This document shows, in pieces, positions 39,249-64,000 of a stretch of 64,000 bases of DNA. The notes beneath the pieces were generated by a model. It did not search any database. It worked only from the letters and a program-made list of their open reading frames with translations, and was not told the origin of the DNA. Position numbers and translations under genes: made by a program. Numbering within the stretch: position 1 is the stretch's first letter; each line of letters opens with the position of its first letter. Origin of the DNA: Akkermansiaceae bacterium (GTDB lineage: Bacteria; Verrucomicrobiota; Verrucomicrobiia; Verrucomicrobiales; Akkermansiaceae); the NCBI GenBank assembly GCA_026461385.1, contig JAPJNB010000045.1, positions 1-64,000 of the forward strand, in the 5' to 3' direction.

Positions 39249-39580
39249 GGTGGTGAAGGGGAGGTTGTGGAAATCAAGCGAGGCGCGCAAGGCATTTGCG
39301 GTGTGGAAACCGGCAGGTGCGGACCGTGGCGATGGAGGTCTAGAAGGAAAAAAGGAGAATTTGCTCAAAAAATCGACTTCTAAGTACACTTTGAATCTCG
39401 TTTTTCAAAAAATGCGCGAAAATTGGTCGTTTTTCTGCAAAAGTGCCCAAAGTTTTTAAAAAGTCCTTGCATCTTTTGAGGCCAGCTCGGTGAAAATTCG
39501 GGTCTTAATCCAACACAACTCGTTGATCTTTATTTACTTAACGATTTATTAAAAATAACCTAATTTGATCTTGATGTTTT

Positions 39581-39600
39581 GGTGTACTCCGGTGTACTTT
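39581..39600. promoter_or_regulatory. Two direct GGTGTACT repeats at 10-bp spacing; candidate MraZ operator
   Basis: GGTGTACTCC GGTGTACTTT directly upstream of mraZ; a related AAGTACAC at 39382-39389. Confidence 0.4.
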
Positions 39601-39654: not shown

Positions 39655-40083
39655 ATGGGCTACACGCCCTACAAAATGGACCCGAAATTCCGGGTTTCCA
39701 TTCCGACGGCTTGGCGTCCGGTCGCGGGAGAAGTCCTGTATTTGCTTTCCTCGCGGACGCACGACCTGCCGGTGATCAAGGTGTTGAGCCAGAAGGCGTT
39801 CGATGAGCGCGTCGAGACGGTCAAGTCGAGTGATCTGACGCCGGCCAAGAAGACGGCCATGTTGGGTCGTTTATCGATGCTTTGCCGCACCGCAAGTGTG
39901 AATGACCAAGGCAAATTGTTGGTTCCCAAGGACTTGAGTGAGGGAGCCGGAATTGTTGCGGAGGCCGAGGTGGTATTGGCGGGCCGGGGATTGCATTTCG
40001 AGGTCTGGAGCAAGGCCAACCACTTCCGTGTTCTGGAAATCGAGATGGCGACTGACGAGGCGGACGACCTCGGAATTTTATAA
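39655..40083 (+). CDS. mraZ: Transcriptional regulator MraZ
   Basis: MGYTPYKMDPKFRVSIPTAWR..., SVNDQGKLLVPKDLSEGAGI; first gene of dcw cluster. In-frame GTG at 39631 is an alternative start. Confidence 0.88.
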   Translation: MGYTPYKMDPKFRVSIPTAWRPVAGEVLYLLSSRTHDLPVIKVLSQKAFDERVETVKSSDLTPAKKTAMLGRLSMLCRTASVNDQGKLLVPKDLSEGAGIVAEAEVVLAGRGLHFEVWSKANHFRVLEIEMATDEADDLGIL

Positions 40084-40217
40084 ATTGAAGCTCCACGAAG
40101 CCGATTTTTCTCAATGCACGCGACCCTAACCCAACTTACGCAAGAAACCGGATGTCCATCCGCAGTTTCGGTCGTGGCTGCACGGGTGTTCGGGGGGGCG
40201 TGTTTTTTATTTTCCAT

Positions 40218-40516
40218 TGCATTTGCGCGCTCGGGACAGCACGCGGGTGCATGGATCCAAACGGATGCTCGCATCGCACCTGGCTGGTTGTCGGTGCGAC
40301 ATTCGTTGATTTTCATGGTTGAGCGCGCAGGGTCTCTCGGGACAGAGCGTTGCGCGCGATTTGGAGCGGGGGTCCGTGCCGTTGCCGGCTGGTTGACGGC
40401 GCGGACCTCGCAAATTTTTTTCACAAGGCAAGATGCCGAGCTCGGGACAGCTCGGTCGTTTGCCGCTCAAACGGACGGCTGCGCTGCTTCTGGCTGGTTG
40501 TCAGCGCAGGCGTCCG
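40218..40516 (+). ncRNA. Candidate cis-regulatory RNA: three tandem ~105-nt units, each with two hairpins with conserved loops
   Basis: CTCGGGACAG starts at 40230, 40336, 40441; GGCTGGTTG at 40282, 40387, 40492 (exactly 105 apart); stems vary with compensatory pairing. Confidence 0.6.
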
Positions 40517-41469
40517 GTGAATTCTCTCTGCCTGCGGGCGCAGGTGCGTACCATCTGCCGGTTTTTCCGGCGGAGACGCTCGAGTGGATGGCCGCAGATG
40601 GCGGCAAATTCATCATCGATGGCACCTTAGGTGGTGGTGGGCACAGCGAGCTTTTTCTCAAAGCGGGCGCGAGGGTTTTGGGAGTTGATCGTGACCCAGA
40701 GGCTCTCGAGCATGCGCGGGCGCGGCTCGCTGGATTCGGCGACCAGTTTTCCACTTGGGAGGGGAATTTCTCTGGAGTTGCAGACATTCCGGCCATCCGG
40801 ATGGGTGAGAAGGCCGATGGGTTGCTGATGGATCTGGGGGTTTCGTCCCGGCAGTTGGATTCGGCTGCGCGCGGGTTTTCCTTCATGCGCGAAGGTCCGC
40901 TCGACATGCGGATGGGACCATCCAGCCCAAGGACCGCAGCGGAAATTGTCAATCATTGGTCCGAGGCCGACCTTGTTCGGATTTTATTTGAATATGGCGA
41001 GGAGTCCAAGGCACGACGGATCGCGGCGGCGATTCTCAAACAACGCGAGAGCAAACGCATTGTCACCACCCTCGACCTTGCCAACTGCATCGAAAAGGCG
41101 ATCGGCCGCCATGGCAGAACCCATCCGGCGACCAAGACATTCCAAGCGATTCGCATGGCGGTGAATGAAGAACTCGAATCGCTGGCCACAGCACTTGCGG
41201 CGGCCCCATCGGTGCTCAAACCGGGCGGGCGCTTGTTGATCATCACCTTCCACAGCCTCGAGGATCGAATGGTGAAACGATTTTTAAAGCACCGCTCCAC
41301 GGAATTTCTCGATGAGCCCGGTTGGCCCGAACCCCGCCCCAACCCAGATTACCAATTCAGGCTGTTGGTCCGCAAGGCCATCAGCCCAACCGCCAAGGAA
41401 ACCACCCAGAACCCACGAGCCCGCAGTGCAAAACTGCGGGTTGCCGAGCTTATAGCCCCAACGCCATGA
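40498..41469 (+). CDS. rsmH: 16S rRNA m4C1402 methyltransferase RsmH (MraW); start uncertain, ORF extends to 40114
   Basis: AYHLPVFPAETLEW, IIDGTLGGGGHSELFL, LLMDLGVSSRQLDSAARGFSF, RIAAAILKQRESKRI, LLIITFHSLEDRMVK. Confidence 0.93.
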   Translation: MSAQASGEFSLPAGAGAYHLPVFPAETLEWMAADGGKFIIDGTLGGGGHSELFLKAGARVLGVDRDPEALEHARARLAGFGDQFSTWEGNFSGVADIPAIRMGEKADGLLMDLGVSSRQLDSAARGFSFMREGPLDMRMGPSSPRTAAEIVNHWSEADLVRILFEYGEESKARRIAAAILKQRESKRIVTTLDLANCIEKAIGRHGRTHPATKTFQAIRMAVNEELESLATALAAAPSVLKPGGRLLIITFHSLEDRMVKRFLKHRSTEFLDEPGWPEPRPNPDYQFRLLVRKAISPTAKETTQNPRARSAKLRVAELIAPTP

Positions 41470-61562: not shown

Positions 61563-63747
<2,185 letters not shown>

Positions 63748-64000
63748 GGGACTTTGTGGCATTTACCCCAGAAGTCAAGAACCCGCCGCATGGATCAGCG
63801 ATGCTTTCGGTAACCGCTTCGAGCTCGAAATTTTTTTCACCATGAGCTAAATTTTTTCTCGACGACCTGAATCCAATTCAAGAGAAGTTGCACCGCGTTT
63901 CGTGCTGAAAAGCATCCCTCCGCCCCTCGCAAACTCCCCAACGACCATGAATCGGTCCTGCCGTCGATTGTTCATCTGCCGCAATTCGCCAACCGTTGGC

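Follow-up and report, generated by a model that had tools for sequence, protein, structure and literature searches.

The window, a 64,000-nt stretch of DNA from an Akkermansiaceae bacterium, carries mraZ on the forward strand (39655-40083; Pfam MraZ, E 2.5e-6), followed on the same strand by an rsmH open reading frame of 451 codons whose ATG lies 30 nt past the mraZ stop codon (40114-41469; Pfam Methyltransf_5, E 3.7e-101, residues 146-445). In most bacteria, the mraZ-rsmH junction opens the cluster of division and cell-wall genes. The first 142 codons of rsmH (40114-40539, forward) form an N-terminal extension that encodes an array of tandem hairpins. The methyltransferase core follows (40540-41466, forward); it has a match in 254 of 262 genomes of the family and is folded in the structure model.

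The array consists of three units of ~105 nt with two hairpins each, spanning 40213-40516 in the window sequence and its predicted fold. Hairpin A carries CUCGGGACAG, with TCGGGACA loops at 40231, 40337, and 40442. Hairpin B has a ~15-nt loop containing GGCUGGUUG, and its GGCTGGTTG loops lie at 40282, 40387, and 40492, exactly 105 nt apart. An earlier note on this DNA, made from the letters alone, had given these loop coordinates and the B spacing, and both agree with the window sequence. It had also described two hairpins in each of three units, and folding of the array region returned all six, with A and B alternating. The A loop is where the note placed it, although it is better read as a hexaloop, CGGGAC, with U-A and C-G as its closing pairs. 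On the forward strand, the A hairpins occupy 40213-40255 in unit 1 (covariance model match 40207-40263, E 1.5e-7), 40323-40357 in unit 2 (40313-40369, E 2.3e-5), and 40427-40464 in unit 3 (40418-40474, E 4.1e-10). The B hairpins, each identified from the fold and from covariation of the B stem, lie at 40260-40307 and 40369-40409 (both with approximate ends) and at 40472-40516. As the note had pointed out, hairpin A of unit 1 is in a shifted frame and is read as SGQ, not LGT. The window's genome has three occurrences of the combined A+B pattern, all at the array, and none of a reversed control pattern. The window array folds at -168.6 kcal/mol over 342 nt. Given that its z score against synonymous-codon shuffles is -5.5 and that the stems covary across genomes, the array is far beyond chance; it is real, and the earlier note understated it. 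The linkers 5' of the A hairpins (e.g., 40310-40322) contain UUUUC, which in many genomes is followed by (A/C)UGGCUGGGCG, a sequence similar to the B loop; an AUG is often present as well.

The array is part of the rsmH reading frame

The array had been taken for a leader between mraZ and rsmH. This placement did not hold: on sequence evidence, the array lies inside the rsmH reading frame and not in an untranslated leader. Across 86 genomes, the stretch from the first ATG in frame past mraZ (40114 in the window) to the RsmH core adds up to 14,107 codons without a single in-frame stop, where ~226 would be expected; the other two frames of the same stretch contain 248 and 204. In several genomes, stops are present upstream of the ATG. 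The start is conserved as MLFxPP in most genomes, with MLFTPP as the start peptide; no Shine-Dalgarno sequence was seen by eye at this upstream ATG. The distance between successive B loops is divisible by 3 in 166 of 168 cases. Because the frame is open from the upstream ATG to the core, RsmH appears to be made with 56-313 additional N-terminal residues, depending on the genome, and the upstream ATG is the place at which the RsmH start ought to be annotated in these genomes. The extension has the peptide repeat consensus FLAGRKKSLGTELLSLFKTMVRAASGWLSARPS and is only mildly basic. In the window's protein, residues 1-140 are predicted to be disordered (pLDDT ~24, from a shallow alignment of 18), and no Pfam match falls within the extension. 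The sole clear exception to the open frame is a metagenome-assembled genome (MAG) with some contamination (G115), in which stops interrupt the upstream part of the array. In another genome (G151), two repeats stand in a shifted frame relative to a close relative, reflecting either a frameshift or an assembly error at a contig end. Two relatives from the order (L135 and L137, family f4) have a different RsmH N-terminal extension, with a conserved peptide (e.g., QVGGWPWFGATDAMDD) and no hairpins.

Conservation of loops, stems, and strand

Conservation in the array is highest in the loops, which are fixed even at synonymous codon positions. Gly-Trp-Leu of the B loop is encoded by GGC TGG TTG in 244 of 250 copies, and Leu-Gly-Thr of the A loop by CTC GGG ACA in 211 of ~228, a codon combination expected in ~1% of cases from RsmH codon usage. 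The neighboring Ala-Gly-Arg, in contrast, is written with many different codons. This difference bears out the proposal that the loops are conserved at the nucleotide level beyond what the protein requires. The motif CTCGGGACA also falls outside its usual frame in 18 of 228 copies, two of which adjoin an assembly gap. The earlier note had set RNA against protein as the object of conservation; the RNA constraint on loops and stems stands, but the opposition does not, as the spacing of the B loops attests to a protein-frame constraint as well.

Compensatory stem changes in relatives, which the note had named as a test, were found for both hairpins. The B stem is 84% paired, with double changes in 13 of 13 pairs and a covariation score of 0.477 (0.186 shuffled, at most 0.135 slid). 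The A stem is 73% paired, with double changes in 12 of 13 pairs and a score of 0.490 (0.199 shuffled, at most 0.276 slid). For both stems, these shuffle and slide controls correct incompletely for sequence relatedness. Pair counts for A come from a MAFFT alignment (A2) that includes one misplaced row, and the covariance model was built from a rebuilt alignment (A3). RNAalifold predicted no pairs on A2, where bulges shift the outer stems out of register, so the A stem was assigned manually. Covariation extends to silent sites: positions -7 and +11 of hairpin B, both third codon positions, form C-G in 127, T-A in 46, and G-C in 29 of 247 copies.

In all 84 genomes compared, the array folded more stably than 30 synonymous-codon shuffles did on average (mean z -4.8), and in 73 of the 84 the sense fold was more stable than the antisense fold. 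Together, these two observations indicate that the array probably acts as mRNA. The B stems contain 112 G.U versus 45 A.C combinations; the same count is uninformative for the A stems, whose outer register is blurred by bulges. In one orthologous unit, seven copies deviate in the B loop, and all seven deviate in the A loop too, which hints at joint use of A and B, although this coupling comes from a single unit and may reflect a single event. A search for long-range pairing between the loops and the rsmH start region found none (mean z -0.11 and 0.14).

Distribution among genomes

Of 262 genomes of the family, 67 have the exact A+B pattern, located between mraZ and the RsmH core; all of these belong to two genera, g1 and g6. 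Judging by the names of public records, g1 contains many Akkermansiaceae MAGs as well as Luteolibacter pohnpeiensis. Carrier genomes have one to seven copies, always on a single strand within a genome; the reversed control pattern gave one match in the 262 genomes, outside the window's own. A covariance-model search of relatives, as the earlier note had recommended, located type A hairpins at rsmH in g1, g6, and a third genus, g15, in which the loop is AAGGGACG. Confident matches were confined to these three genera, and none was obtained in other genomes among 390 of the phylum, a search whose stricter filters may lose weak matches. Only A-type hairpins were found in g15, so B is not always needed; the last of them lies directly 5' of the RsmH core, with an ATG before it. 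In one g15 genome (G249), the second A hairpin has a long G run, perhaps a slippage tract or an assembly error, in place of its 5' strand. As a guess based on the presence of A-type hairpins alone in g15, an early hairpin at rsmH may have been duplicated to build up the array, and the B hairpins may have joined afterwards.

No credible copies were found away from rsmH in the genomes searched. A single covariance match came from a different family (G442); it falls at the gene of an ABC transporter and was put down to chance. Nine single matches in viral contigs are close to the chance estimate for the pattern over that collection, and a phage origin was rejected. At rsmH in other families the hairpin loops are absent, though RsmH there has other N-terminal extensions.

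Proposed function

The array has the appearance of a control element, so far undescribed, within the coding region of rsmH in Akkermansia relatives. As far as genome comparison goes, the A and B stem-loops are kept in the sense RNA, with compensated stems and fixed loops, in an array that is in frame with RsmH. The earlier proposal of a candidate cis-regulatory RNA thus survives as a structured, undescribed RNA at mraZ-rsmH and fails in its placement as a leader; that a protein or another trans factor binds the array is our inference, as it was the note's. In an assessment that we hold at about even confidence, the array may be a cis-acting mRNA element in the 5' coding sequence of rsmH, serving as a multivalent site for a putative RNA-binding factor that controls rsmH and the division and cell-wall (dcw) operon. 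Variable stems and constant loops in one to seven tandem units are how a multivalent binding site would be expected to look, and recognition of the loops is suggested by this combination together with the sense-strand preference and the restriction to one operon. Each A+B pair would be a bipartite recognition site for a putative RNA-binding protein, or less likely a small RNA, and the tandem copies would allow multivalent, cooperative binding. Since RsmH synthesis requires ribosomes to unfold the array, factor binding and translation would compete, and array occupancy would thereby reflect the translational activity of the operon mRNA. Occupancy could then tune rsmH output as well as the stability or read-through of the downstream dcw genes, with feedback on rsmH's own operon as the simplest route. 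Counting against this explanation, the array does not reach the ATG of rsmH, the loops showed no pairing with the start region, and g15 has A-type hairpins alone. A bolder and more tentative suggestion is a kind of bacterial RNA control that would be new as a class: a growing row of factor-binding hairpins would lie in frame within the translated beginning of a division-operon gene, translation would wipe the signal and set it anew, and the enzyme would keep the array as a disordered tail.

Other explanations account for some of the same features. The hairpins might act as roadblocks without a trans factor, slowing ribosomes or shielding the mRNA from nucleases and so setting RsmH output or the half-life of the operon mRNA. 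Their high stability, their translation, and their variable number would suit such a role, which nevertheless calls for stems and not for fixed loops; given that conservation peaks in the loops, we consider it unlikely. Selection on the repeat as protein, with a repetitive RsmH tail contacting the ribosome or a membrane and the RNA features as a by-product, would explain the strict frame, the conserved start peptide, and the repeat consensus. It would not lead one to expect fixed loop codons, covarying third positions, or copies of A in another frame, and a disordered, only mildly basic extension that lacks a Pfam match makes it a rather improbable reading.

An element that works as DNA or single-stranded DNA, such as a cruciform or a protein site for replication, recombination, or segregation, seems to us improbable to a similar degree. 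Each genome has one cluster, the inverted repeats could extrude, and the loops could be DNA sites; however, both folding energy and the excess of G.U over A.C favor the sense strand, and the array is always in frame inside one gene. Tandem copies, conserved loops, and a cis position in a biosynthetic operon also recall a tandem small-molecule riboswitch. This is very unlikely for simple hairpins in which no junction or pseudoknot was found, which vary up to seven copies within a coding region and have no Rfam match. Finally, in-frame palindromic units of ~105 nt that multiply could be a selfish repeat comparable to the Rickettsia palindromic elements, but the units are not dispersed, credible copies occur at rsmH only in the window's own and related genomes, and the loops are kept across genera, leaving this origin extremely unlikely.

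We return to the multivalent mRNA site as the reading that we prefer. No published control of the mraZ-rsmH junction in Akkermansia relatives was found in the literature searched, and the array offers a clear RNA target with fixed loops for fishing out a new RNA-binding regulator. It is also a strong case of dual coding, in which a single sequence is maintained at the same time as a protein frame and a tandem RNA structure.

Comparison with known elements

Rickettsia palindromic elements are palindromic units in frame within genes. The array shares this property but differs in having fixed loops and a single locus instead of a dispersed distribution. CsrA/RsmA sites present ANGGA or GGA in hairpin loops and can form multi-hairpin sponges. 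The A hexaloop likewise contains GGA, as does the g15 loop, and many hairpins stand in a row; unlike CsrA/RsmA sites, however, the C following GGGA is invariant in the aligned set, and loop B has no GGA. CsrA was rejected as the binder, as a csrA gene was found in 0 of 26 genomes in a search whose controls were positive.

The note had judged the array to be unlike the actinobacterial mraW RNA. The cmscan search that it had advised agreed, returning no Rfam match to the array and, for mraW RNA (RF01746), no match at the gathering score and none at E values as high as 5; no matching description of the array was found in the literature searched. The mraW RNA motif occurs in Actinomycetales (PMC2864571) and is also a conserved structured RNA on the 5' side of rsmH (mraW), whereas the array occurs in Akkermansiaceae genera only, among the genomes searched, and is tandem and inside the coding region. 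The pan motif consists of tandem simple stems with bulged As upstream of its biosynthetic operon and has been suggested to be a site for a dimeric protein (PMC2864571). Simple tandem stems at a biosynthetic operon, interpreted as binding a protein multimer, are common to the pan motif and the array, but the array has conserved loops and is translated. ANTAR-target RNAs, which are bound by protein, have two stem-loops per unit with conserved loops, and some lie inside open reading frames (PMC8164766); the array parallels them in layout and, as proposed, in protein binding. In ANTAR targets, each of the two stems is capped by a hexaloop with A1 and G4 (PMC8164766), a pattern that fits neither the A hexaloop CGGGAC of g1 and g6 nor the ~15-nt B loop with GGCUGGUUG; identity with ANTAR targets was rejected. 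A search for ANTAR proteins gave no match in 12 genomes, nor in the control genomes.

Mimicry of 16S rRNA, the substrate of RsmH, for autoregulation of the enzyme was rejected, as g1-type loops have no close match in the 16S of two relatives; AAGGGACG of g15 has a single occurrence, away from h44. The MraZ operator consists of GTG-type repeats with a 10-bp period in the mraZ promoter (PMC7761207). A direct repeat with this period, TGGTGTACTC CGGTGTACTT, lies before mraZ at 39580-39599 and looks like such an operator; it differs in sequence and place from the hairpin loops, and the array was not taken to be an MraZ operator. The sole Rfam match in the window is a TPP riboswitch at 63637-63750 on the reverse strand.
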